From: Thiotrichales bacterium 35-46-9
GTDB lineage: Bacteria; Pseudomonadota; Gammaproteobacteria; Thiomicrospirales; Thiomicrospiraceae
Direction: 5' to 3'
Assembly: GCA_002281095.1 (NCBI GenBank)
Contig: NCFI01000009.1
Coordinates: forward strand, 1 to 37,805
DNA length: 37,805 nucleotides
Shown: one piece after another, positions 19,315-33,187 of the stretch
Layout: every line of letters starts with the position of its first letter
Numbering within the stretch: position 1 is the first letter of the stretch
Translations under genes and position numbers: made by a program
Notes under the pieces: generated by a model
The model's input: only the letters and a program-made list of their open reading frames with translations
What the model was told of the DNA's origin: nothing
The model's database searches: none

Positions 19315-19336
19315 CAATAGCTCCTGAAACTCATTT

Positions 19337-19461
19337 GGATGGGGGTTCTGGGGGAAGGGCTAACCCTAAGTAGCATGTAACCACTTAATTTAATACCCTT
19401 CCTCCAGACATAAAAAATTAAGACACTAAAAACTGAGCAGAGCGAAATTTTTGTGTGTTTT
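19337..19461 (+). repeat. Two-hairpin repeat family, copy A
   Basis: Between topA and dprA. CTGGGGGAAGGG (19348-19359) can pair with CCCTTCCTCCAG (19396-19407), leaving one G/T position. A second hairpin at 19423-19456 pairs ACACTAAAAA with TTTTTGTGT around GCAGAGC. The G-rich part has tracts of 2, 5, 5 and 3 G, just short of the strict G-quadruplex pattern. On the minus strand the second hairpin could help end dprA transcripts. Confidence 0.85.
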
Positions 19462-19481
19462 TCATTTATTAACGCTCTCCT

Positions 19482-20579
19482 TCAGCGAATACGGGCAATT
19501 TTATTGCCTCCATAGTTTTCCACGCTATCAGAGATTTCAAGTTCCATCAAGAGGGAAGCGAATTCTGATGCTGATAATTGACAATTCATTAACAATTCAT
19601 CCGCGCTAATCGGATCATAGGGAATCTGTTTTAAAAGTGCTAGCGCGGTCGGTGATAAGTGAGCCAATTCCTTATCTAATATTGCCGCTGGTTGGACAAA
19701 GCGACGTAATTGTGGCGCCAACTCGGTCAAGATATCCTGCACCGTTTCCGTTAACTTAGCCTGTCCTTTTTTAATCAGCGCATGGCAGCCCTTGGCCAAG
19801 GGATTATGAATCGACCCCGGAATAGCAAAGACCTCTCGACCTTGCTCTAGTGCCAAACCTGCTGTAATTAACGACCCTGAAGCCTCAGCAGCTTCGACCA
19901 CTAATACGCCCAGCGACAAACCTGAAATAATGCGGTTTCGCTGCGGAAAATGCCAATGTTCAGCACGCGCACCGAGTGGAAACTCACTTAACATCAATCC
20001 ACAAGCAACAATCGATTCGGCCAGTGATTTATTGCGAGCTGGGTAGACTAAATCTACACCGGTACCCACTACGGCAACCGTTTGTCCCTGATGTGCGACC
20101 AAAGCGCCCATATGTGCAGCCGCATCAATGCCACCAGCCAGCCCACTGGTGACACACAGCCCCGACTCAGCCAAACCCTGCGCAAACTCATGCGCAATTT
20201 TTTGTCCGCCAGTGGTAGCGTTTCGACTACCAACCATGGCTATTTGCGGCGCAGACAGCAAAGTGACATCACCACGCGCCCACAACACGGGTGGCAAATC
20301 GTCAATTTGTTGCAGTTGCCGAGGATAATTCACATCATCCCACCATAACAGACGATGTTGCTCGGGGGAACGTGCAAGCCATTCAAGCTGTTGGTCGGCT
20401 TGTTGCCAATTCGCTTGCCAGTCACTGGCCAAGCCCCAATGACGCTGTTCAGAAGCACTAGCCGTTACCAGCGATTGTGCACTTCCTGCCAACGACATCA
20501 GTTCTAAGAAGGCTTTTCGTCCAATTCCTTTGCTTAAATAGACCGCTAATCGTGCCCGATTTTCCTGTTCACTTATCAT
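19482..20579 (-). CDS. dprA: DNA-processing protein DprA (Smf), 365 aa
   Basis: Binds incoming single-stranded DNA during natural transformation and loads RecA. A SAM-like helical N-terminus (about 1-60, LAVYLSKGIGRKAFLELMS) precedes the Rossmann-like core. The core has YPRQLQQIDDLPPVLWARG, AMVGSRNATTGGQKIAHEFA, GLAGGIDAAAHMGAL, VVGTGVDLVYPARNKSLA and FPLGARAEHWHFPQRNRII. The C-terminus (about 300-365) carries the DprA winged-helix domain (ALLKQIPYDPISADELL). Length is usual. It is flanked by same-orientation copies A and B of the repeat family. Its presence hints at competence, although dprA is also kept in non-competent bacteria. Confidence 0.95.
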   Translation of the reverse strand: MISEQENRARLAVYLSKGIGRKAFLELMSLAGSAQSLVTASASEQRHWGLASDWQANWQQADQQLEWLARSPEQHRLLWWDDVNYPRQLQQIDDLPPVLWARGDVTLLSAPQIAMVGSRNATTGGQKIAHEFAQGLAESGLCVTSGLAGGIDAAAHMGALVAHQGQTVAVVGTGVDLVYPARNKSLAESIVACGLMLSEFPLGARAEHWHFPQRNRIISGLSLGVLVVEAAEASGSLITAGLALEQGREVFAIPGSIHNPLAKGCHALIKKGQAKLTETVQDILTELAPQLRRFVQPAAILDKELAHLSPTALALLKQIPYDPISADELLMNCQLSASEFASLLMELEISDSVENYGGNKIARIR

Positions 20580-20605
20580 TTGCTAAAGCTCTTGCAAAAT
20601 ACCAC

Positions 20606-20731
20606 GGGTATGGGGGTCTGGGGGAAGGGGTTATTACAGGTAGCATGTAACACTTGATTTAAGCCCCTTCCACCAGAAAAAAATAAAATCGGAACGCTAA
20701 AAAATGTGCGAAGCGGAGTTTTTAGTCGTTC
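20606..20731 (+). repeat. Two-hairpin repeat family, copy B
   Basis: Between the divergent dprA and def genes. G-tracts of 3, 5, 5 and 4 with loops TAT, TCT and AA (20606-20630) meet the canonical G-quadruplex pattern. The G-rich arm can pair with CCCTTCCACCAG-type bases at 20664-20675. The second hairpin, 20693-20730, pairs AACGCTAAAAA with TTTTTAGTCGTT with one bulge around GCGAAGC. Confidence 0.85.
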
Positions 20732-20771
20732 TTGCTGGTCTATCTCCCCTGTTCTGACTGCATTTATGACA

Positions 20772-20777
20772 TATAAT
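20772..20777 (+). promoter_or_regulatory. Possible -10 box for the def operon
   Basis: A TATAAT lies 35 bases before the def start, just downstream of repeat copy B. The -35 at 16-18 bases is poor. It would drive def through trkH. Confidence 0.4.
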
Positions 20778-20812
20778 ATGATAAAAAATGTTTGCGAAAA
20801 GGAAAATTTTCC

Positions 20813-21316
20813 ATGTTGCTGGACATCGTCCTCCATCCTGATGAACGCTTACGCGTTCACTGTACGCCCGTTACCGAAATGAACGACAAGCTAGATCAAC
20901 TGCTCAGTCATATGTTCGACACCATGTATGACGCTGATGGCGTTGGCTTAGCCTCCACGCAAGTCGGTGAAAATCAGCGCTTTTGTGTTGTTGATGTTTC
21001 TGAAGATCGTAGCAAACCCCTAGTGCTCATCAACCCCGAAATTGTTGACCACAAGAACACCATTACGTGGAAAGAAGGTTGCTTATCAATTCCAGAAGTG
21101 TCTGCTGAAATTATCCGACCGAAAAATATTTTGGTGCGTGCATTGGATCGCGATTTCAAACCCATTGAGTTTGAAGCGGACGATTTGCTATCAGTGTGTA
21201 TTCAACATGAAATCGACCATTTAGACGGCAAATTGTTCATTGACCATTTATCACCGCTGAAACGTCGTCGTCTGATGGAAAAATACGCCAAACAACAAAA
21301 GGCTCAAACCCCATGA
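20813..21316 (+). CDS. def: Peptide deformylase, 167 aa
   Basis: Removes the N-terminal formyl group from new proteins. The three family motifs are present: GVGLASTQVG at 43-52, EGCLSIP at 88-94 and HEIDHLDG at 132-139. Cys90, His132 and His136 bind the metal and Glu133 is catalytic. The usual first motif is GxGLAAxQ, so Ser replaces Ala here. I choose ATG 20813, with AAGGA about ten bases upstream, over the TTG at 20792. It is the first gene of the long operon and overlaps fmt by four bases. Confidence 0.96.
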   Translation: MLLDIVLHPDERLRVHCTPVTEMNDKLDQLLSHMFDTMYDADGVGLASTQVGENQRFCVVDVSEDRSKPLVLINPEIVDHKNTITWKEGCLSIPEVSAEIIRPKNILVRALDRDFKPIEFEADDLLSVCIQHEIDHLDGKLFIDHLSPLKRRRLMEKYAKQQKAQTP

Positions 21317-22245
21317 GTTTACGTGTTATTTTTGCTGGCACACCTGAGTTTGCAACCTATCCATTGCAAGCACTGATTCAAAGTGAGCATCAAGTGGTTG
21401 CTGCGTTTACGCAACCCGATCGCCCTGCAGGTCGCGGTAACAAGCTCACGCCTCCGCCAGTCAAAGTCTTGGCCGAACAAAATGGCATTCCGGTGCATCA
21501 GCCACTGTCATTAAAGACACCCGAAGCTCAAGAACTGATTGCGCAATATAAGGCCGATGTCATGGTGGTGGTGGCTTACGGTCTGTTATTGCCACAAGCC
21601 GTTTTAGACATGCCACGCTATGGTTGTTTGAATATTCATGGCTCGTTATTGCCACGTTGGCGGGGTGCTGCGCCCATTGCGCGCGCTATTGAAGCTGGCG
21701 ATAAACAGACGGGTATCGACATCATGAAAATGGATGCTGGCTTGGATACAGGCGATATTTTAGCGCGTGCTGTGCTCCCTATTTTACCGTCAGACACACA
21801 ACAACAGGTACATGATAGCCTCGCTCCGATGGGCGCTCAACTGCTCATGACCGTGCTGAGTGACTTACCTCATTTTTTAGCGCAAGCAAAAGCACAACCC
21901 TCCGAAGGGATTTGCTATGCCCACAAGCTGAGTAAAATAGAGGGCAAAATTGATTGGACGCAAAGCGCAACGCAAATTGTGCGCAAAATTCGTGCTTTTG
22001 CGCCTTGGCCAGGCAGTTTTTGTCATTGGGGCGAACAGGTGCTTAAAGTTGGCATGGCAGAAGTGGTGAATGAGCAGAGCCATCAAGCCCCGGGCAGCGT
22101 ACTTGGGCTAACAGAGCAAGGCTTACTAGTAAATACGGCTGATGGCATTGTTGCCTTACAACAACTACAACGCACTGGTGGAAAAATGCTGCCGGTTCAT
22201 GAGTTCAGCAAAGGCTGCGACCTGAGCGGACAACAACTCAGCTAA
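21313..22245 (+). CDS. fmt: Methionyl-tRNA formyltransferase, 310 aa
   Basis: Formylates initiator Met-tRNA, the step that deformylase later reverses. The N-terminal domain begins LRVIFAGTPEFATYPLQAL, with a folate-binding and catalytic region LNIHGSLLPRWRGAAPI (His in NIHGSLLP) and DAGLDTGDIL. The C-terminal OB-like domain includes IRAFAPWPGSFC. Length matches E. coli (315). It overlaps def by four bases and rsmB by one. Confidence 0.97.
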   Translation: MSLRVIFAGTPEFATYPLQALIQSEHQVVAAFTQPDRPAGRGNKLTPPPVKVLAEQNGIPVHQPLSLKTPEAQELIAQYKADVMVVVAYGLLLPQAVLDMPRYGCLNIHGSLLPRWRGAAPIARAIEAGDKQTGIDIMKMDAGLDTGDILARAVLPILPSDTQQQVHDSLAPMGAQLLMTVLSDLPHFLAQAKAQPSEGICYAHKLSKIEGKIDWTQSATQIVRKIRAFAPWPGSFCHWGEQVLKVGMAEVVNEQSHQAPGSVLGLTEQGLLVNTADGIVALQQLQRTGGKMLPVHEFSKGCDLSGQQLS

Positions 22246-23561
22246 TGAAAAACCATCCAACCCCACGTCGCCTCGCATTCGATATGCTGATGGCTGTCAT
22301 TGTCGATAACGAGTCGCTATCCGCTGTATCGCCACGCTTACTGCCACGTTTGAGCGAAGGGCGCGATAGAGCTTTTGCCTATCGCTTGACGCTGGATACT
22401 CTGCGCCAACTCAATCGGTTAGCCTGGATGCGTGACCAATTATTGGAACGCCCTTTTAAAGGCAAAGACATGGATATCGCTGTATTGCTGCTGTTAGGCA
22501 TTGCGCAGCTTTGTGATTCGTCTTTAGCGGTACACGCCAGTTTGCACGAAACCGTTGAATTGGCACGCGGCTTTAAGAAAAAGCCTTGGGCTGTGGGACT
22601 CATCAATGGTGTACTACGCAATTTTCAACGTCAACAAAGCGAGTTAATACAAAAAGCAAGCCAACAAGTTGACTTAGCAACAGCACATCCCACTTGGTTT
22701 ATTCAACAACTGCAACAGGCTTACCCAGAACACTGGCAAAGGGTTTGCCACGCCAATAACGAACCGGCAGCGCTCTGTCTTCGCCTGAAACCGCATTGTG
22801 ATGTTGAAGCCTATCTCCAACAACTCCCTGAATCACTGGAAGCGCAAGCACACCCGAACTTATCTCATGCCGTGTTACTGGATAGCACCGACGTAACACA
22901 ATTACCCGGCTTTACTGAGGGTTGGTTTAGCGTGCAAGATGCTAGCGCACAATGGGCGGGACATCTGCTGCAACCCAAAGCGCACGAGCGCATTTTAGAT
23001 GCCTGTGCGGCTCCAGGTGGTAAAACAACGCATATTCTGGAGTTAAGCGACAATCAGTGCGATCTAACTGCCTTGGATATTGAAGCCAGTCGGCTAGAAC
23101 GTATCGAAGAAAACCTGACACGCTTAGCACTGACCGCCAAGCTACAGGTTGCTGATGCAGCAGATACCGCTTCTTGGTGGAATGGACAGCTTTTTGATGC
23201 GATTTTATTAGATGCGCCCTGTTCTGCAACGGGTATTATTCGACGCCATCCCGACATTAAATGGCATCGTAAACCAGCGGATATTAAGGTGCTTAATGAA
23301 ACTCAAGCGCACTTACTCGACCAACTCTGGTCGCTCGTTAAACCCGCTGGTAGACTGCTCTATGCTACTTGTTCTGTTTTACCCAGTGAAAACACGGAAC
23401 AAATTCAAGCTTTCCTAGCTCGCACTCCCGATGCGCAGCTCATACCAACCCCAATCACAGGTGCACTAGACACCGGATTTGGTCAGCAACTGCTGCCCAG
23501 TCACAGTCGCGGCGGCGATGGTTTCTTCTATGCGTTATTAGTCAAACAGGAAATGATTTGA
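22245..23561 (+). CDS. rsmB: 16S rRNA m5C967 methyltransferase RsmB (Sun), 438 aa
   Basis: Methylates C967 of 16S rRNA with S-adenosylmethionine. The N-terminal 150 residues are a NusB-like helical domain (RRLAFDMLMAVIVDNESL, HETVELARGF). The methyltransferase domain has the SAM-binding loop DACAAPGGKTTHILEL, LDAPCSATGIIRRHPDIKW with one of the two functional cysteines, and LLYATCSVLPSENTEQI with the other. The end HSRGGDGFFYALLVK is conserved. Starts at TAATG with fmt and overlaps the next gene by four bases. Confidence 0.96.
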   Translation: MKNHPTPRRLAFDMLMAVIVDNESLSAVSPRLLPRLSEGRDRAFAYRLTLDTLRQLNRLAWMRDQLLERPFKGKDMDIAVLLLLGIAQLCDSSLAVHASLHETVELARGFKKKPWAVGLINGVLRNFQRQQSELIQKASQQVDLATAHPTWFIQQLQQAYPEHWQRVCHANNEPAALCLRLKPHCDVEAYLQQLPESLEAQAHPNLSHAVLLDSTDVTQLPGFTEGWFSVQDASAQWAGHLLQPKAHERILDACAAPGGKTTHILELSDNQCDLTALDIEASRLERIEENLTRLALTAKLQVADAADTASWWNGQLFDAILLDAPCSATGIIRRHPDIKWHRKPADIKVLNETQAHLLDQLWSLVKPAGRLLYATCSVLPSENTEQIQAFLARTPDAQLIPTPITGALDTGFGQQLLPSHSRGGDGFFYALLVKQEMI

Positions 23562-24115
23562 TGCGTTACTGGCTGCTGTTATCCATACTGCTCACGACTT
23601 TCAGTCAAGCACTTTGGGCTGACGTGACGCGTGCTACGCCCTTGTTGCCCAGTATTCAAGGACAACAGCTGGTGGTGGATGGCCAGGTCACACTCGGCAT
23701 GACACCAACAATGGAGAAAGCACTGTTGCATGGCATTGCTGTTGAGTATAGTATTCAAGTTACCTTAATTGATCCTGAACAGTGGTTTTGGCAAAACACC
23801 CTAGCCAGCAAAAAAATGCGCGTGCGCCTTTCTTATGATCCACTAAAACAGACCTATCTGTTAAGCAATCTGACCTTATCCCGACTCAATACGGATCGAG
23901 ACTTATCGCGAGCCCTCACCACACTGGGTTCGATTCAGAGCTTTCCCTTAATCGCTATCGAAAAGCTTCAAGCAAATAAAGCCTATGCGCTGCAGTTAGA
24001 AGTGCGTCTCGAAAGAGAAAGCTTGCCCAACGCATTGCGTCTTTCCAGCCTACTTGACAGTGAATGGCGGGTAAACTTAAGCGGACATCAACAACCTTGG
24101 ACATATCAACCATGA
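23558..24115 (+). CDS. DUF4390-family exported protein, 185 aa
   Basis: A signal peptide at residues 1-21 (MMRYWLLLSILLTTFSQALWA) precedes a mature part rich in beta strands (GQQLVVDGQVTLGMTPTMEKALLHGIAVEY, ALQLEVRLERESLPNALRL). This matches DUF4390 proteins, which sit directly upstream of NtrY-like kinases in betaproteobacteria. Function is not established. The position suggests a periplasmic partner of the kinase, which is inference. It overlaps both neighbours by four bases (ATGA). Confidence 0.85.
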   Translation: MMRYWLLLSILLTTFSQALWADVTRATPLLPSIQGQQLVVDGQVTLGMTPTMEKALLHGIAVEYSIQVTLIDPEQWFWQNTLASKKMRVRLSYDPLKQTYLLSNLTLSRLNTDRDLSRALTTLGSIQSFPLIAIEKLQANKAYALQLEVRLERESLPNALRLSSLLDSEWRVNLSGHQQPWTYQP

Positions 24116-26310
24116 AACGGCTGAGGGATAAATTTAAGCCCTACCGATTTGTGCTACTCATTGCAGTGCTCTTGGTTTTTTCATTGATTCTGCTCAGTCA
24201 AAGCCTACAGACAGCTCAAGATTTTACCAACACCTACGGCGCTTTGTTACTGATTAACCTACTGGGTGCCATCATTCTATTGGCTTGGTTGGCGTTCAAT
24301 CTCTGGCAACTGAAACAAGATATTGTTCGACAAACACCTGGCTCCAAACTACAAATTCGTCTGGTTGGTGTGCTTGCCTTACTGATTGGCATACCCATGC
24401 TGGTTGCCTTTTTCTTTGCCCGTCATGTGATTCATCAGAGTGTTGAAAACTGGTTTGATACCCAAACAGAAGAAGTGCTACAAGACGCACTGACGCTGAG
24501 TCGTAGCCTACTCGACCTCAAAACACGCGATAGTCTCAATCGTTTGGAAGGACTGATTCAACTCAATAAAGAAGGACTAATTAGTCAACCGACCTTTACC
24601 CTGACAGCGGTGGCAGAAATGTTGGGAGATCGTAATACGGACATCACCCTCTTTTCCAGCGCAGGACAAGTCATTGCTACTGCCAGTATTGACACCATTA
24701 ATACCAATAATCTGCTTCCCCAGCCCTTACCAGAAAATATTCTACAACAAGTGCGACAAGGCACACCTTATGCCGCCTTGGACGCTGACCCACTTTCAGA
24801 CGGCACTGTCAGTAGCTTTATTCGTATCGTCTTGCCGGTACGCGACCCCAACCAACGCATTCCCTCGTTATTGCAGGCGCAATTCCATTTACCCGACGAA
24901 CTGCGCCAGCAAACTGATCGCGTCAGCAAAGCCAACGCCCAGTATCAAACGCTCGCTTTTTTACGCGAACCACTCAAGACCTCCGTTACGATTAACTTGG
25001 CCTTGGTGGTACTGCTGACGCTGCTCGGCGCGGTATTAGCGGGCATTCAAGCGACGCGCAACTTTATTCGCCCTGTCAGCGAATTGACCCAAGGCGCACG
25101 TAACATTGCCAAAGGCGATTACAGCCAGCGTTTAGAAACCGACCGTCATGATGAACTGGGTGACTTGATGCACACCTTTAACGACATGGCAGAACAAATT
25201 CAAAAATCACGCGATGAATTAAGACGTAGCCAACTGACCGCTGAAGGTCAAAAACGCTATTTACAAATTCTGCTGAATCAAATTACTGCTGGTGTACTGA
25301 CCTGTGATCCCAAACTACGATTGCGTACTGCGAATAATGCCGCATCTCGTTTGCTTGGCACATCACTCGACAGTCACATAGGATTATCTCTGAACGAACT
25401 GCTTGAAAAGCACAGTCCACTCTCGCCGTTTTTAGAAGCCATCGAAAGTGCCGCACAAGAGCTTGCTCCACAAAGTGAAAAAGCATGGGAAAACCAAATA
25501 TCCATCGATGCTGCTGACAGTCGTCATATTTTGATGCTACGCATCAATCGATTGCCAGATTTACTGCATACATCGGGCGGCTTACTGGTTGTGTTTGACG
25601 ATATTACCGCTATTGTACAATCACAGCGTTACGCTGCATGGCAAGATATCGCCCGCAGACTCGCTCATGAAATCAAAAACCCCCTAACGCCTATTCAATT
25701 GGCAGCGGATCGCATGCGTTACCGATTACTGGATCATCTTAACGAAGAGGATGCACGCATTCTCGACCGAGCCACCCATACCATTATTCAACAGGTCGAT
25801 TCCATGAAGCGCTTGGTACAGGACTTTTCGGACTTCGCTAAAAGCCCGAAAGTAGTGATGCAACAAATCGACCTCAACAACTTCATTCAAGATATGGCGA
25901 TTATGTATCCGCTCACCGATAAACAACGTATGCGTATTCAGCTACAACTCGACCATCAGTGCCCTCACATCATCGCCGATTTGGGACGCCTGCGACAAAT
26001 GTTTCATAACCTCATCAAAAATGCGATTGAGGCCAGTGAAAAAGAAGAAAAGCCTAGCCTGATCATCAGTACGCAATGTGATAAGGAATATCTAAACTTG
26101 ACCTTTAGCGACAATGGTCCTGGTATTCCCGAAGACTTACGGCTGTGGATTTTTGAACCCTACTCGACGAACAAACCCAAGGGAACAGGGCTAGGAATGG
26201 CTATTGTCAAACGCATCCTAGATGAGCATCAGGCTAGCATCAGCATTGGCAGTAATGACCCACAAGGTGCTAGAATTAACGTTTCGTTTCCCCTCAACCC
26301 AAAAGGTTAG
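24112..26310 (+). CDS. ntrY: NtrY-like membrane sensor histidine kinase, 732 aa
   Basis: A membrane sensor that should phosphorylate the NtrX-like regulator encoded next. I start at ATG 24112, which overlaps the previous stop; an ATG 48 bases earlier lies inside that gene and adds only a non-homologous end. Membrane segments lie at about 13-30, 43-63, 84-103 and 292-312, with a large sensor region between 104 and 291. HAMP follows at about 312-365 (FIRPVSELTQGARNIAKGDY), then PAS at about 380-500. The HisKA H-box is RRLAHEIKNPLTPIQL with His519. The ATPase domain has LRQMFHNLIKNAIEAS, DNGPGIPEDL and GTGLGMAIVKRI. The signal is unknown; NtrY family kinases have been linked to nitrogen and redox responses. 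Confidence 0.92.
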   Translation: MKRLRDKFKPYRFVLLIAVLLVFSLILLSQSLQTAQDFTNTYGALLLINLLGAIILLAWLAFNLWQLKQDIVRQTPGSKLQIRLVGVLALLIGIPMLVAFFFARHVIHQSVENWFDTQTEEVLQDALTLSRSLLDLKTRDSLNRLEGLIQLNKEGLISQPTFTLTAVAEMLGDRNTDITLFSSAGQVIATASIDTINTNNLLPQPLPENILQQVRQGTPYAALDADPLSDGTVSSFIRIVLPVRDPNQRIPSLLQAQFHLPDELRQQTDRVSKANAQYQTLAFLREPLKTSVTINLALVVLLTLLGAVLAGIQATRNFIRPVSELTQGARNIAKGDYSQRLETDRHDELGDLMHTFNDMAEQIQKSRDELRRSQLTAEGQKRYLQILLNQITAGVLTCDPKLRLRTANNAASRLLGTSLDSHIGLSLNELLEKHSPLSPFLEAIESAAQELAPQSEKAWENQISIDAADSRHILMLRINRLPDLLHTSGGLLVVFDDITAIVQSQRYAAWQDIARRLAHEIKNPLTPIQLAADRMRYRLLDHLNEEDARILDRATHTIIQQVDSMKRLVQDFSDFAKSPKVVMQQIDLNNFIQDMAIMYPLTDKQRMRIQLQLDHQCPHIIADLGRLRQMFHNLIKNAIEASEKEEKPSLIISTQCDKEYLNLTFSDNGPGIPEDLRLWIFEPYSTNKPKGTGLGMAIVKRILDEHQASISIGSNDPQGARINVSFPLNPKG

Positions 26311-26312
26311 TC

Positions 26313-27662
26313 ATGAGCAAGGCACATATTCTCGTTATCGACGATGAACCCGATATCACCACTCTCATCCAAGACATTCTGGAAGACGAGGGTTATCAGG
26401 TGGATGTCGCCAATACCGGCAATCAAGGGCGTGACTTAGCACAACGGAGTCACTATGATCTACTCTTACTCGATGTTTGGCTACCTGACATTGACGGCAT
26501 TAGCCTACTCAAAGAGTTTTTAGTACTACCTAACGCCCCTTCCATGGTCATGATGTCAGGCCATGCCACCATTGAAACAGCGGTAGAAGCCACCAAATTG
26601 GGCGCTGTTGACTTTTTAGAAAAACCGCTTTCCTTAGCAAGGTTACTGGCAACCGTTGAGCACGCTTTGGCCGAGAGGGATTTAGCCAGCACCCTCACTC
26701 ATAGCGATGTGCCTAGCCAAGAAGGGCCTATTGGTCGTTCCGCTGCCATTAAGCAATTACGCGAACAAATCAAAAAATTGGCCCCATTAGATGCCCCCGT
26801 TTTGATTGAAGGTGAAGCAGGGAGCGGCAAAAAACTCGCTGCTTATGCACTCCACCGCACCAGCCCAGAGCGAGGCAAACCCTTTGCAATGGTGACGGCG
26901 GCGCAACTCAACGACCCCATTACCTTTAGTGAATGGGTGGGCGCAGACACCGATGGCAAATTAGCGCAAGCCAAAGGCGGCACCATTGTCATCGAAGACG
27001 TGGACACGCTCACACCCCAAACACAACAATGGCTCGATCGTTGGTTGAGCACCGGTATGATGACACGCTTAGATGGACAACAAGTCCCCTTACCTGCACG
27101 GATTATTGCGCTTACCTTATCGCCATTAGTGCCTTTGGTTTCACAACATCGCTTTAAGGATGAACTTTATTATCGCTTGTCGGTATTGAGTTTGAGCATG
27201 CCACCCTTGCGAGATCGCAAGGAGGACATTCCTGAGTTGCTAGATTATTACATTGACCATTTTGTCCGTCAGCACAACCTAAAATATCGACGCTTTGGTA
27301 TTGCAGCACAAAACATTCTGCGTCAACACACTTGGCCAGGCAATGTACGCGAGTTAAAAAATCTGGTGCATCGTTTACTGCTGTTGGGTGGTGATGAAAC
27401 GATTGGTGAACAAGAAATTCAACAAGCGCTAACCGCTCAGCAAAGTTCAGAAGATAAAAGCCACCCCTGCCCGCTCAATTTGAGCCTACCACTTAAAGAA
27501 GCTCGTGAAGCCTTTGAGCGTCGTTACTTAACAGAACTCTTGGTCAATACACAAGGATCCGTTTCAGAAACGGCTCGTTTGGCAGGGCTTGAACGTACCC
27601 ATTTATATCGTAAATTAAAAAGCCTCAATATTGACCTGCATACAGGGAGCCATAACGCATGA
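26313..27662 (+). CDS. ntrX: NtrX-like response regulator with a degenerate sigma54-activator core, 449 aa
   Basis: A receiver domain at 1-120 has the acidic pair Asp10-Asp11... region, phosphoacceptor Asp54 in LLLDVWLPD and Lys in FLEKP. An AAA+ domain follows at about 137-370, with Walker A GEAGSGKK at 167-174. The Walker B end reads IEDVD instead of the usual LDEI. The GAFTGA loop that contacts sigma54 is absent: FSEWVGADTDGKLAQAKGG runs through that place. Arg-bearing LYYRLSVLSLSMPPLRDRKEDI is retained. A Fis-type HTH closes the protein (GSVSETARLAGLERTHLYRKL). So it probably controls promoters without activating sigma54. It starts two bases after ntrY and overlaps trkA by four. Confidence 0.9.
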   Translation: MSKAHILVIDDEPDITTLIQDILEDEGYQVDVANTGNQGRDLAQRSHYDLLLLDVWLPDIDGISLLKEFLVLPNAPSMVMMSGHATIETAVEATKLGAVDFLEKPLSLARLLATVEHALAERDLASTLTHSDVPSQEGPIGRSAAIKQLREQIKKLAPLDAPVLIEGEAGSGKKLAAYALHRTSPERGKPFAMVTAAQLNDPITFSEWVGADTDGKLAQAKGGTIVIEDVDTLTPQTQQWLDRWLSTGMMTRLDGQQVPLPARIIALTLSPLVPLVSQHRFKDELYYRLSVLSLSMPPLRDRKEDIPELLDYYIDHFVRQHNLKYRRFGIAAQNILRQHTWPGNVRELKNLVHRLLLLGGDETIGEQEIQQALTAQQSSEDKSHPCPLNLSLPLKEAREAFERRYLTELLVNTQGSVSETARLAGLERTHLYRKLKSLNIDLHTGSHNA

Positions 27663-29044
27663 ATATCATCATTCTGGGTGCTGGACAAGTTGGCTCTGCC
27701 CTAGCGCAATTTCTAGCAAAAGAAAATAACAACATCACCATCGTTGATACTGACACCCAGCGCTTGCAGAAATTGCAAGACCATATTGATGTTCGCACGG
27801 TTGTTGGACATGCCGCTTATCCTTCCATATTGGAGCAAGCTGGTGCCGAAGATGCGGATATGCTCATTGCCGTCACGCCAAGTGACGAAGTCAACCTACT
27901 GGCCTGCCAAATTGCCAAAATTTTATTTAAGATTCCCGATAAAATTGCCCGCATTCGTCGCAGTGAATACATCACCCATCCCGAACTTTTTGATGTCGAT
28001 TTTTCAGCCGATGCCATGGCGATTAACACCATTATTAGCCCAGAGGTATTGGTTACACGCTATATTGAGCAGCTCATTCGCTACCCTGGCTCGTTACAGG
28101 TACTCGACTTTGCTGACGGCAAATTACGACTGGTCGGCTTACGCGTGCGCTCAACAGGTCCAATGCTTGGACAAACCATTCGTGATGTCACCGCCAAGCT
28201 ATCTCAACAACAGGAAATTCGTATTGTTGCCATTTACCGTAACAATGCTGCCATTGCTCCCGATGGCGACACCATGTTTATTGAAGGCGACGAAGTCTTT
28301 TTCCTAGCACAAGCGGATGCCATCATCGGCATTATGCGCAAGCTACAACGTCAGGACTTACCTTACCGTAAAATCTTTATTGCAGGTGGCGGCAATGTTG
28401 GACTACGTTTAGCAAAATCACTCGAAAAAGATTTTCAAGTCAAACTGTTAGAACACAACTTAGGTCGCTGTCGTGAAATCGCTGAAGAGCTAAGTGACGC
28501 CGTAGTGCTCCACGGTGATGCGATGGATCGAGATTTACTGTTAGAAGAAAACATTGATCATACCGACCTGTTCATTGGTGTGACCAATCATGACGAAGCC
28601 AATATTCTTTCTTCCATGTTCGCTAAACAACTCGGCGCTCGTAAAATCATGACACTGGTCAATAACAGTGACTATGTGAACATGATTCAAGATGACAAGA
28701 TTGATATTGCCATTTCTGCCGATCAAATTACAGTCTCTAGCTTACTCGCCAAGGTGCGCCAAGGTAGCACTGCGGTAGTACACACACTACGTCGTGGCGC
28801 TGCTGAAGCCATTGAAGTCGTTATTCATGGCAGTGAAAACACGTCCAACGTGGTCGGCAAAGCGGTAGAGCAAATTCAGTGGCCGCCAGCAACGCTCGTT
28901 GGAGCGATTGTACGCGAAGAACAAGTACTCATGGCACACCATGATACCATCATCGAATCGGGTGATCATGTGGTGCTGTTTGTCGCTGACAGTGAACAAG
29001 TGCTCGCTATCGAAAAATTGGTCACTCCCAAAAAATTAACTTAA
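27659..29044 (+). CDS. trkA: Trk potassium uptake regulatory subunit TrkA, 461 aa
   Basis: A cytosolic, nucleotide-binding gating protein for the TrkH channel. It holds two tandem RCK units: NIIILGAGQVGSALAQFLA at the N-terminus and KIFIAGGGNVGLRLAKSLE at about 240-259. Both are glycine-rich NAD-binding loops, and each is followed by a TrkA-C domain. LIAVTPSDEVNLLACQIAK and IGVTNHDEANILSSMFAKQ are the matching second halves. Length matches E. coli (458). It is placed between ntrX and trkH. Confidence 0.97.
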   Translation: MNIIILGAGQVGSALAQFLAKENNNITIVDTDTQRLQKLQDHIDVRTVVGHAAYPSILEQAGAEDADMLIAVTPSDEVNLLACQIAKILFKIPDKIARIRRSEYITHPELFDVDFSADAMAINTIISPEVLVTRYIEQLIRYPGSLQVLDFADGKLRLVGLRVRSTGPMLGQTIRDVTAKLSQQQEIRIVAIYRNNAAIAPDGDTMFIEGDEVFFLAQADAIIGIMRKLQRQDLPYRKIFIAGGGNVGLRLAKSLEKDFQVKLLEHNLGRCREIAEELSDAVVLHGDAMDRDLLLEENIDHTDLFIGVTNHDEANILSSMFAKQLGARKIMTLVNNSDYVNMIQDDKIDIAISADQITVSSLLAKVRQGSTAVVHTLRRGAAEAIEVVIHGSENTSNVVGKAVEQIQWPPATLVGAIVREEQVLMAHHDTIIESGDHVVLFVADSEQVLAIEKLVTPKKLT

Positions 29045-29078
29045 CGTCAAATAGACTCAGTAAAGGCTCTTCCTAACG

Positions 29079-30533
29079 ATGGACTTAAAAGTTATTCAGC
29101 GCATTTTGGGCTTTTTGCTCATGGTGTTTAGTGTCACACTCTTACCGCCCATTATGGTTGACTTGATTTATCAAGAAGGTCGTTGGACCAACTTTTTCTT
29201 TCCATTGCTGCTCAATTTAAGTGTTGGCTTTTTACTCTGGTACCCCGCTCGCCATAATCGCAGTGAAATGCGTATTCGTGATGGCTTTTTCATCTCTGCC
29301 ATGTTTTGGGTCGTACTTTCCTTAGTGGCGAGCACTCCCTTTCAACTCACGCCTGAACTACAACTTTCCTTTACTGATGCTGTTTTTGAGGCCACCAGTG
29401 GACTGACCTCAACAGGCGCTTCTGTCATCACAGGCTTAGACCAGCTACCACATGCCATTTTATATTATCGTCAACAACTTAACTGGTTGGGTGGGTTGGG
29501 TATTGTCGTATTAGCGGTAGCCATCCTGCCCATGTTAGGGGTTGGTGGTATGCAACTTTATAAAACGGAAATGTCAGGACCATCTAAAAACGACAAAATG
29601 GCACCCCGTATTGCCGAGACGGCGCGCGGATTATGGATCGTTTATGTTTCGTTAACCCTGGCGTGTATCAGTGCTTTTTGGCTGGGTGGTATGAGCCTAT
29701 TTGATGCCATTGGTTACGCTTTTTCAGTGATGTCACTTGGCGGATTTGCGCCGCATGATGCCAGTATGGGCTACTACGACACCCCTTATTTACTTTTTGT
29801 CGGTGGCTTATTCATTCTGATCAGTGGCATTAATTTTACCCTACACTTTACTGCATGGCGCAGCATGGGCGTTGCTCACTATTGGCGCAATCCCGAAGTA
29901 CGCATGTACTTACTCATCGTCTCTATCGCCACAGTGATCATGACAGCAACCCTCTGGCATCATCAAGTTTATGATTCATTAGAATTATCGTTTTTACACG
30001 GTTTTTTCAACATGATTAGTGTGATGACGACGACCGGACTCACCACCTCCGATTTATCCTTGTGGCCGACCTTCATTCCCGTACTGCTCATTATGCTCAG
30101 CTTCATTGGCGGCTCTGCTGGCTCGACCGCAGGCGGTATCAAAGTGGTACGTATTTTATTGTTATGGAAACAAGGCATGCGCGAACTTTACCGCTTGGTT
30201 CATCCTAATTCAGTTGTACCTATCAAGCTCGGCACACAAACTGTTTCCGACAGCGTTATCAGTGCAGTATGGGCCTTTTTTGCCCTTTATATCTTCACGG
30301 CTGCATTTATTACCTTATTGTTCATGGCAACGGGACTCGACTTTTTTAGTGCTTTTGCGACCACAGCCGGCACCCTAAACAATATGGGAGTTGGACTAGG
30401 TGGGAGTGTCAGCGGTGGATTCGCCGCCTTATCCGACACGGCAACTTGGATAGGCACCTTTGCCATGCTGCTCGGACGCTTGGAGTTGTTTACGCTGCTG
30501 GTTTTATTTACACGCGCTTTTTGGCGTGGCTAA
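29079..30533 (+). CDS. trkH: Trk potassium transporter membrane subunit TrkH, 484 aa
   Basis: The K+-translocating membrane protein, with four pore-like repeats and about ten membrane helices. Selectivity-filter segments can be seen at ATSGLTSTGASVI, VMSLGGFAPHD, VMTTTGLTTSDLSLWP and TAGTLNNMGVGLG. GGSAGSTAGGIKVVRILLLWKQ is the intramembrane loop that gates the channel. ILYYRQQLNWLGGLGIVVLAVAI is also typical. Length matches E. coli TrkH (483). Last gene of the operon, 34 bases after trkA, with a hairpin downstream. Confidence 0.97.
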   Translation: MDLKVIQRILGFLLMVFSVTLLPPIMVDLIYQEGRWTNFFFPLLLNLSVGFLLWYPARHNRSEMRIRDGFFISAMFWVVLSLVASTPFQLTPELQLSFTDAVFEATSGLTSTGASVITGLDQLPHAILYYRQQLNWLGGLGIVVLAVAILPMLGVGGMQLYKTEMSGPSKNDKMAPRIAETARGLWIVYVSLTLACISAFWLGGMSLFDAIGYAFSVMSLGGFAPHDASMGYYDTPYLLFVGGLFILISGINFTLHFTAWRSMGVAHYWRNPEVRMYLLIVSIATVIMTATLWHHQVYDSLELSFLHGFFNMISVMTTTGLTTSDLSLWPTFIPVLLIMLSFIGGSAGSTAGGIKVVRILLLWKQGMRELYRLVHPNSVVPIKLGTQTVSDSVISAVWAFFALYIFTAAFITLLFMATGLDFFSAFATTAGTLNNMGVGLGGSVSGGFAALSDTATWIGTFAMLLGRLELFTLLVLFTRAFWRG

Positions 30534-30602
30534 GAAGACTCTGAATCATGGCTTCTACTCCGTAGCGCTAAAGCGTCGTTGCCTATTCAGACTTCCTATT
30601 TT
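30534..30602 (-). repeat. Inverted half copy E of the repeat family, acting as terminator
   Basis: Between the convergent trkH and lptG genes. GAAGACTCTGAAT (30534-30546) pairs with ATTCAGACTTC (30585-30595) with a two-base bulge. On the minus strand, the bases at 30584-30602 match 33140-33158 of copy D for 19 consecutive positions (AAAATAGGAAGTCTGAATA). Only the second-hairpin part is present. It probably ends trkH and lptG transcripts. Confidence 0.7.
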
Positions 30603-30619
30603 CATTTTTTAGCTATTCC

Positions 30620-31726
30620 CTAACGCATCCTAGCCAGTAGCATTAAACTGACCAATAAAATCGTCGTTGGCAACAAGAAGGCACTGATCACCGCCGGCAA
30701 ATGTGCCAAAGCCACCATGTCACCAACGACACGATTCAGTAAAAAGAATACCAATCCAATGACAATGCCCAATAACACGCGTCCACCCATACTGGCGCTA
30801 CGACCCGCGCTAAGCAATAAGGTAAGCGCCAACGCCAGCATGGCCAACAATGAAATAGGATGAGCAAGCTTACGCCACAAAGCCAGCTCTAGCGTCTGTG
30901 TCTGTAATCCGCTGGCCTTCATACTGTCGATTTGTGAACGCAGCTCAATCCAAGACCAATTTTTCTTATCCTGTGCCATTAGAGACAATGCCATCGGTTC
31001 AAAAGGCAAAGTCACCGCTAGGCTTGCCTGTTGCGTTTGTTGCCAAGTTAAACCTGTAAACGGAAAATCGCCACCAATGGCTTCTGTTGCGACCTGTTGC
31101 TGACGTACTTCGCGCAAAATCCATTGACGACTTGTGGCGTCAAAATCAGCCTGTTGCGCTTGAATCACATGATAACGATCTTGAGCGCTATCCAACTCGT
31201 AAATAATGACACCTGCCAGTTGGTCTTGCTTCACCACGGTTTGTGCTGTGATGTAACGCCGCTGATCTTTCGTCCAAAAGCCCGTTTCACCCGCTAAGGA
31301 TAAATGCTGCGCCCCATTCACCAAACGCAATTGCAGCGCTGTTTTTTCTGCCCAAGGCGCTAAACTTTCACCCACCAAAAGCATCATCAACCAAATCAGC
31401 AACAATCCCTTAGCCAAGGCGAGCAAAATACGAGAAGGCGACCAACCACTAGCACGGATAATGGTTAGCTCACTTTGCGCAGCTAACTGCCCTATGCCCG
31501 CTAACACACCAATCAGCAACGCCATGGGGAAGACTTCATAGGCATAAGCGGGCATTTTTAGCAACGCAAACAACAAGGCTTTAGAGAGTGGATAATTTTC
31601 TGACAAACGCCCCAGTTGGGACAATAACTCTGAAAAACCCAGCAAAGCGGTGAGCAATAACATAGCAGCGAACACTGGCCAAACAACGGACTGCGCTAAA
31701 TAACGTTCTATTTTACCGAATAACAT
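30620..31726 (-). CDS. lptG: LPS export ABC transporter permease LptG, 368 aa
   Basis: One of the two inner-membrane permeases of the LptB2FG lipopolysaccharide extractor. I place the start at ATG 31726, eight bases after GAGG, giving MLFGKIERYLAQSVVWPVF. An open stretch of 28 codons upstream comes from repeat copy C and has no homology. Membrane helices lie near 14-35, 56-85 and 93-120 in the N-terminal half and three near the C-terminus, with a periplasmic beta domain between. LTIIRASGWSPSRIL is the coupling helix to LptB. It is the distal gene, separated from lptF by about 160 bases that hold repeat copy C. The lptF-first order fits the family. LptB is not in the window. Confidence 0.93.
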   Translation of the reverse strand: MLFGKIERYLAQSVVWPVFAAMLLLTALLGFSELLSQLGRLSENYPLSKALLFALLKMPAYAYEVFPMALLIGVLAGIGQLAAQSELTIIRASGWSPSRILLALAKGLLLIWLMMLLVGESLAPWAEKTALQLRLVNGAQHLSLAGETGFWTKDQRRYITAQTVVKQDQLAGVIIYELDSAQDRYHVIQAQQADFDATSRQWILREVRQQQVATEAIGGDFPFTGLTWQQTQQASLAVTLPFEPMALSLMAQDKKNWSWIELRSQIDSMKASGLQTQTLELALWRKLAHPISLLAMLALALTLLLSAGRSASMGGRVLLGIVIGLVFFLLNRVVGDMVALAHLPAVISAFLLPTTILLVSLMLLARMR

Positions 31727-31750
31727 TAGGTGACCTCTAAAACCCCTAAC

Positions 31751-31875
31751 GGGAAGGGGGGCTGGGGGAAGGGCTTGATGATAGAGGCATTTAACCACTT
31801 GATTTAACACCCTTCCACCAGAAATTTAATGAACTTGGGAACTCTATAAACCCACGAAGTGGAGTTTATAGAGAT
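31751..31875 (+). repeat. Two-hairpin repeat family, copy C, between lptF and lptG
   Basis: G-tracts of 3, 6, 5 and 3 with loops AA, CT and AA (31751-31773) fit the canonical G-quadruplex pattern. The arm can pair with CCCTTCCACCAG (31810-31821). The second hairpin, 31842-31873, is the best in the set: CTCTATAAAC pairs with GTTTATAGAG, with an inner CCAC-GAA-GTGG and one bulged A. The G-rich strand is opposite to lptF-lptG transcription. Confidence 0.88.
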
Positions 31876-31885
31876 GCCCATAAGG

Positions 31886-32965
31886 CTATTTTCCTATCAA
31901 CCGACGCTTGAGCAACCACCACCAATGCACAATGGGCATCACTACTAATAATGGGAAAACGAGCATCATCAGCATCCCTGGAAACACCGGCAGACCACCG
32001 CTCTGAATTTGTGAACGCAAGGCAATGGCTACCTGCATAAAGAGCAAATAAAAACCCAGCCCCAAAGCCATGCGTGAGTAACGCCCTTTACGCGGCCCCA
32101 CTCTCGCTAAACGCCAACCCACAAAAGCCAGCACTAATACACTCGCCATAACAAAAAAACGCCACTGCAAATGCGCCATGGCACGGGGTTCATCGCGCTT
32201 TTGCCATAGCGTTAGCGTGTCCATGGCTTCAATATCTAACGCCGACAAGGTTACTTGCCAATCTGGCAACCAAACCGTCATACGCTCAAAACGTTGACTC
32301 ATCAACTCTTCTGGACCCAGCAAACCACTCATCACCTGACCATTAAGCAAAATGAGCTGTGTTCGCCCCTGTTGTTGCTCAAAATAACCGCGTGGCGCCA
32401 ACAATAATTGATCGAGCTTTTCTGGGGTGCGCAATTGAATGAAAATATCCGTTAATTCGCCTTTAGCACTCACTGTTTCCGCATAAAACACCCCTTGCGA
32501 TGAGGGCAAGGGCGTAAAACGCCCACCAACCAGTGATTTAATATGCGTTCGCAACTGACCTTCTGCCAAAATATTCCGTTCCTGTTGCATCGACCAAGCC
32601 GCGCCAAACAAGGAAAAGAAGCCTGCCATTAAGGCGGCAATTAACGCCAGCAGCATGACCAAACGAACAAAATAGCGTGGCGCTATGCCACTGGCGGCCA
32701 AAACTTCCATTTCTCGATCATGATACAGACGACCAAAAGTGAGCATCACCGCTAAGAGCACCGATAACGGTAATAAAATTTCCATCGCCATCGGGATTTT
32801 CAACAACACCAATTGCAACACCAAGTCGGGACTCAATCGACCTTCCAAAGCTTCAGTCAGCAAACGAGCAACTTCTCCGCCCATGATGACCAATAGCAAT
32901 ACTCCCAACACCGCCACGAAGGATAGGGTCATTTCTCGACTGATATAAGCGGTTAGTAAACGCAT
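31886..32965 (-). CDS. lptF: LPS export ABC transporter permease LptF, 359 aa
   Basis: Partner permease of LptG. It begins MRLLTAYISREMTLSFVAVLGVLLLVIMGG, the usual first helix. Helices follow near 45-75 and 95-120, then a periplasmic jellyroll-like region and three helices at about 265-355. VLAASGIAPRYFVRLVML is the LptB coupling segment. GAAWSMQQERNILAEGQLRTHIKSL and GGRFTPLPSSQGVFYAE are conserved in LptF. Length matches E. coli (366). It reads away from pepA; the two share a 252-base intergenic region holding repeat copy D. Confidence 0.93.
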   Translation of the reverse strand: MRLLTAYISREMTLSFVAVLGVLLLVIMGGEVARLLTEALEGRLSPDLVLQLVLLKIPMAMEILLPLSVLLAVMLTFGRLYHDREMEVLAASGIAPRYFVRLVMLLALIAALMAGFFSLFGAAWSMQQERNILAEGQLRTHIKSLVGGRFTPLPSSQGVFYAETVSAKGELTDIFIQLRTPEKLDQLLLAPRGYFEQQQGRTQLILLNGQVMSGLLGPEELMSQRFERMTVWLPDWQVTLSALDIEAMDTLTLWQKRDEPRAMAHLQWRFFVMASVLVLAFVGWRLARVGPRKGRYSRMALGLGFYLLFMQVAIALRSQIQSGGLPVFPGMLMMLVFPLLVVMPIVHWWWLLKRRLIGK

Positions 32966-33004
32966 GGGTGGATAACTTTACTCATTAATGATTAGTGCCA
33001 GTGC

Positions 33005-33033
33005 TTGTGCATTAGACACAAATTGAGTATTGT
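33005..33033 (+). promoter_or_regulatory. Possible pepA promoter
   Basis: TTGTGC (33005-33010), 17 bases, then TATTGT (33028-33033). A TTGTG/CACAA inverted repeat overlaps it. A transcript from here would carry the whole of repeat copy D in its 5' leader of about 180 bases. Confidence 0.4.
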
Positions 33034-33058
33034 AAGTTAATATGTGCAAAATACAAAA

Positions 33059-33187
33059 GGGATGGGGGTGTGGGGGAAGGGCTAGGCCATAACAGCCTGA
33101 AACCGATTAATTTATGCCCTTCCAACCACTCAAAGAACTAAAATAGGAAGTCTGAATAAAAAGCAGAGCGCATTATTCAGACTCTCC
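33059..33187 (+). repeat. Two-hairpin repeat family, copy D, upstream of pepA
   Basis: G-tracts of 3, 5, 5 and 3 with loops AT, TGT and AA (33059-33081) fit the canonical G-quadruplex pattern. The C-rich partner GCCCTTCCAACCA starts at 33117. The second hairpin, 33149-33183, pairs AGTCTGAATAA perfectly with TTATTCAGACT around GCAGAGC. It ends about 30 bases before the pepA start. Confidence 0.88.

Follow-up and report, generated by a model that had tools for sequence, protein, structure and literature searches.

Four repeats of about 150 bp in the 37,805-nucleotide stretch of DNA analysed here (the window) are almost certainly copies of an IS5-family MITE. The family is new, and an IS5-derived MITE is itself a known kind of element. 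The best explanation overall, and a very probable one, is a MITE family mobilised in trans by an IS5-family (DUF772/DDE) transposase; that the pairing within its hairpins is maintained at the level of the element is moderately probable. The evidence consists of terminal inverted repeats (TIRs), target duplications, empty sites, the same TIRs on IS5 elements, multiplication restricted to the genus and copy-specific pairing of the hairpin arms.

From left to right the element consists of a left TIR, hairpin 1, an A-rich linker and hairpin 2; the right TIR doubles as the right arm of hairpin 2, and a third TIR-like sequence, in direct orientation, forms the inner arm. The copies in the window and their parts are as follows.

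19315..19463 (limits approximate), + strand: MITE copy 1, in the topA-dprA gap; older, with degenerate ends; covariance-model match of 144 bits
20585..20732, + strand: MITE copy 2, in the dprA-def gap; flanks TGCT/TGCT; site empty in G001
20615..20678, + strand: hairpin 1 of copy 2, arms TCTGGGGGAAGGGG ... CCCCTTCCACCAGA
20690..20732, + strand: hairpin 2 of copy 2, its right arm being the right terminal repeat
About 30531-30612, - strand: partial fifth copy, consisting of a B-type hairpin 2 on its own whose loop holds a second repeat (GGCTTCTACTCCGTAGCGCTAAAGCG)
31729..31879, + strand: MITE copy 3, A-type, in the lptF-lptG gap; flanks ATTA/ATAA; site empty in G001
33037..33187, + strand: MITE copy 4, B-type, in the lptF-pepA gap; flanks TAAG/TAAG, an exact 4-bp duplication
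33145..33187, + strand: hairpin 2 of copy 4, arms AGGAAGTCTGAATAA.. / ..TTATTCAGACTCTCC

An earlier note on this DNA had described a four-copy repeat family that it did not recognise. The four copies lie where it placed them in the window, all on the + strand and all intergenic, but its left limits are about 20-25 bases too far right, the element being about 150 bp long and starting further upstream. The 'G-rich' and 'C-rich' blocks that it named are present, but are actually the two arms of hairpin 1 (CTGGGGGAAGGG / CCCTTCCACCAG). The genes around the copies are ordinary (topA, dprA, def, fmt, trkH, lptF, lptG, pepA and a holC-like gene), and the window contains no Rfam match at the gathering score. 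Elsewhere in the window, positions 39-130 and 508-598 hold a duplicated block of about 92 bases, 89-95% identical, near a porin-like gene; the block contains a terminator-like hairpin (AAAAAGCGACCCTTTCGGATCGCTTTTT).

The family is in fact recognisable by its ends. The TIRs are imperfect and about 17 bp long (GGtgACCTCTAAAAACC / GGgcACCTCTAAAAACC; GGTGACCTCTAAAAC / GGGCATCTCTATAAA in copy 3), and an alignment of many copies gives GGTGACCTCTAAAAACC as the left end and GGGCACCTCTAAAAACC as the complement of the right end. Exact 4-bp target duplications were found at the predicted borders of 26 of 87 copies, where permuted flanks predict 1.9 (z 17.7), with many copies having no exact duplication; duplications of other lengths or at shifted offsets fit worse. 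The TIR pattern had 49, 51, 22 and 72 matches in four genomes, compared with about 2-5 for a reversed control. At the orthologous sites in the relative G001, which is about 93% identical over the region, copies 2 and 3 are absent and copies 1 and 4 are present. The element of about 150 bp contains no transposase gene. Hairpin-2 units also occur alone, for instance one of 44 bp in G003 (L258) with TAAG on both sides, and therefore the inner/right TIR pair may also be able to move independently as a unit of about 44 bp.

A covariance model was built from the four window copies and used at a match threshold of E ≤ 1e-3. It gave 67 matches on both strands of the organism's own 1.83-Mb genome (G000), and 72, 20 and 22 matches in three genomes of the same genus. 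Chance is excluded, because the same search of 25 genomes from other genera of the same family and class returned none. The copies thus extend well beyond the four of the earlier note: the genome carries about 65, in both orientations, and the window itself adds the fifth, partial one. At least two subfamilies can be distinguished, A (CTCTAAAAA..CCCACGAAGTGG..TTTTTAGAG) and B (AGGAAGTCTGAATAA..GCGAAGCGC..TTATTCAGACCTTCC).

Some copies carry further small repeats. The second repeat (CACCTTGCGGTGCACTAAAGTG / GGCTTCTGCTTCGCAGCGCTAAAGC) consists of two tiny hairpins and sits inside MITE copies, either in the loop of hairpin 2 or in the left arm of hairpin 1 (L249, L250, L254; window 30531-30612; G000 C110:3868, C45:34665, C8:38550 and C76:9209); in L249 and L250 it forms a 23-base tandem array. 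Several copies (G000 C102:6031; L235; L243) have a different small hairpin (ATACCGAAGGTCTCGGAACGATA) inserted at the apex of hairpin 2.

An IS5-type transposase gene, in many cases truncated at a contig end, follows the same TIR in G001 and G003. The N-terminal transposase fragment matches DUF772 (PF05598) with E 7.6e-10 and the NCBIfam IS5_4 model with 2e-11, the latter falling under the whole-protein cut-off because the query is a fragment. Complete plasmid-borne relatives annotated as IS5 family bear the same TIRs, as in the Azotobacter salinestris plasmid copy (NZ_CP045303), whose terminal repeats are GGGCACCTCTAAAAACC nearly letter for letter (GGGCACCTCTAAAAACC / GGGCACCTCTAAAAACA; GGGCACCTCTAAAAACC at both ends except for the last base). 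The Diaphorobacter and Comamonas plasmid relatives have the TIRs GGGAACCTCTCAAAACC and GGGCACCTCTCAAAACC, with 4-bp duplications TCAC and TTGC, and so share the length of the target duplication with the MITE. The MITE differs from these elements in that it encodes no protein, contains internal hairpins of its own and carries the TIR a third time. An internally deleted IS of 470 bp with TIRs at both ends was found in G001 (C76). An IS5-family transposase would recognise the outer TIRs and insert the element with a 4-bp target duplication, mobilisation presumably occurring in trans.

In the draft assembly of the organism's own genome no intact transposase was detected, and neither DUF772 (PF05598) nor DDE_Tnp_1 (PF01609) was found. 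Across the four genomes, matches to PF05598 occurred in G001 only, as fragments only, and PF01609 had no match in any of these draft, fragmented assemblies; IS5-type transposase fragments were present in the drafts of G001 and G003, with none in those of G000 or G002. Because these assemblies are broken up, IS copies being a cause of contig breaks, the partner could be absent from the assembly or extinct in the organism's own genome. For the B-type ends, a search turned up no IS partner. A nearly full palindrome of about 180 bp with related ends (GGGCACCTCGAATAACC) in G001 (L251, C141:5560-5760) may be a further MITE belonging to this transposase group.

The arms of the second hairpin differ among the four window copies and each pairs with its own partner, as the earlier note had observed, with folding z-scores of -2.0, -4.1, -3.5 and -4.9. 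Covariation was tested on 104 copies (10,731 column pairs) in an alignment fitted to the covariance model, using a G-test with average-product correction and our own implementation of an R-scape-like null, in which substitutions were re-dealt along the tree in 40 replicates. Under this tree-aware null five helix pairs reached E ≤ 0.1, and these are the top five of all 10,731: 117-123, 108-132 and 104-137 (E 0 for each of the three), 25-84 (0.025) and 111-129 (0.1). In a structure-blind MAFFT alignment, pairs from both hairpins were also top-ranked, mixed with some cross-hairpin subfamily signal. Permutation of arms within subfamilies gave own-partner pairing with z 10.4 (A) and 4.8 (B) for hairpin 2 and z 4.2 (A) and 4.0 (B) for hairpin 1; as a control, left and right TIRs had no copy-specific pairing (z -0.3 in A, 0.5 in B). 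This within-subfamily permutation with its TIR control rules out subfamily confounding as the sole cause of the covariation, and the control values near zero rule out TIR:TIR coevolution. The covariation in both hairpins is therefore real and goes beyond shared ancestry, within the limits of statistics on copies that are mutually related.

Single changes in hairpin 2, read on the + strand and counted approximately by parsimony, left G-U about 57 times and A-C about 20 times (p 3e-5), where unpaired transition rates predict nearly equal numbers. This excess speaks for the + strand as the folded molecule, either as RNA or as single-stranded DNA. It also weighs against the strongest of the competing accounts, in which a mutation process and not selection keeps the pairing, quasi-palindrome correction by template switching copying one arm onto the other. 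Template switching does not predict that G-U should outnumber A-C on a single strand, and no mirrored change occurred among 10 orthologous pairs. In its support, private variants are mirrored in near-perfect palindromes (C8_38550: GGCAGCTCTAACAATCCCA / TGGGATTGTTAGAGCTGCC), and double changes of the transversion type, for which G-U cannot be an intermediate, occur about as often as those of the transition type (23.5 vs 27.4). As the whole explanation it is possible but unlikely; as a contributor to element-level maintenance, the copying of one arm onto the other may help to keep the pairing.

The 10 orthologous pairs, drawn from G000 and G001, bear on whether resident copies are conserved. Divergence was 6.2% in the hairpin-2 arms (9 of the 19 hairpin-2 changes coming from one pair), 5.7% in the rest of the element and 5.6% in the flanks; in hairpin 1 it was 2.9% (p 0.08). 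No clear compensatory pair was found among the listed changes in these pairs. Orthologous arms drift like their surroundings without compensation, and therefore the coupling arises among transposing lineages or by arm-onto-arm copying: pairing is kept among transposing lineages and not clearly at each site. The earlier note had taken compensatory change as a sign of selection on a structure. The compensation itself stands, in both hairpins and together with the G-U excess, but not a structured locus conserved by the host, since the copies are IS5-type MITE insertions, a close relative lacks two of the four at the same sites and the arms of orthologous copies drift uncompensated.

A role for the host would have hairpin 2 selected at each resident site as a regulatory RNA, a terminator or 3' stabiliser. 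The gene context offers some grounds for it. In 34 of 87 copies a gene that reads into the element has its stop codon at the right end, and in 12 at the left end (p 0.0016), counted from -12 to +8, mostly within one base and with orthologues not collapsed; the corresponding numbers in G000 alone are 19 and 7. A strict terminator-like apex stem followed by a T-run, in which an A-tract, a GC stem and a T-tract form the apex, occurs in about a quarter of A-type copies (18/74 on the + strand, 13/74 on the - strand, against <1% in shuffles). Among B-type copies the same strict test found 1/26 and 0/26, and in 77% the 8 bases that follow hairpin 2 on the - strand include five or more T. A generic terminator scan gave no site on the window copies. 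The G-U asymmetry implies that the + strand is folded and the stop-codon asymmetry implies transcripts of the - strand, and the two are unreconciled. That hairpin 2 acts as a transcription terminator is accordingly a tentative reading, somewhat short of an even chance. A benefit at each site is unsupported, because orthologous copies show no compensation; their arms diverge like their surroundings and site occupancy is polymorphic between close relatives, so that host-level selection is distinctly unlikely.

Under element-level maintenance, pairing would instead be kept since paired, terminator-like elements multiply or survive better beside genes. It is quite improbable that a folded + strand, as RNA or single-stranded DNA, is needed for propagation of the MITE, with lineage-level selection and not host sites maintaining both hairpins; if true, the folded + strand would be a structure-dependent helper step for a MITE of a DDE transposase. 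An origin as REP/REPIN-type repeats moved by a RAYT (IS200-like Y1) transposase is extremely unlikely: such repeats are likewise small, palindromic and intergenic, and compensatory changes across the hairpin of a mobile repeat are reported in REPIN spacers (PMC3116915), but Y1_Tnp (PF01797) was not found in the organism's own genome by a search that finds it in control genomes, and the 4-bp target duplications and IS5-type TIRs also disfavour it.

Folded MITEs and terminator-like repeats are already known (PMC3049150, PMC5896051, PMC10969869). Coxiella QMITE1/2 (PMC5896051) and MITEAba12 (PMC6382973) are, like this MITE, short, intergenic and strongly folded, with TIRs and target duplications; the present family differs in being genus-specific in sequence and asymmetric, with the right TIR within its own hairpin. 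The pneumococcal BOX, RUP and SPRITE repeats are likewise folded, interspersed and inserted into one another, a likeness in described features; SPRITE resembles a terminator and is located close to the 3' ends of genes, and the words covariation and compensatory are not used in that study (PMC3049150). A search of the literature under the name Thiomicrospira turned up no miniature inverted repeat.

The family offers a mobile repeat in which the covariation of paired arms can be measured, the comparison of left and right TIRs serving as internal control and orthologous copies as a clock. It also warns against taking significant covariation in a multi-copy intergenic repeat as proof of a host RNA gene, since such a signal can build up among the source lineages that transpose even as the copies left in place decay.
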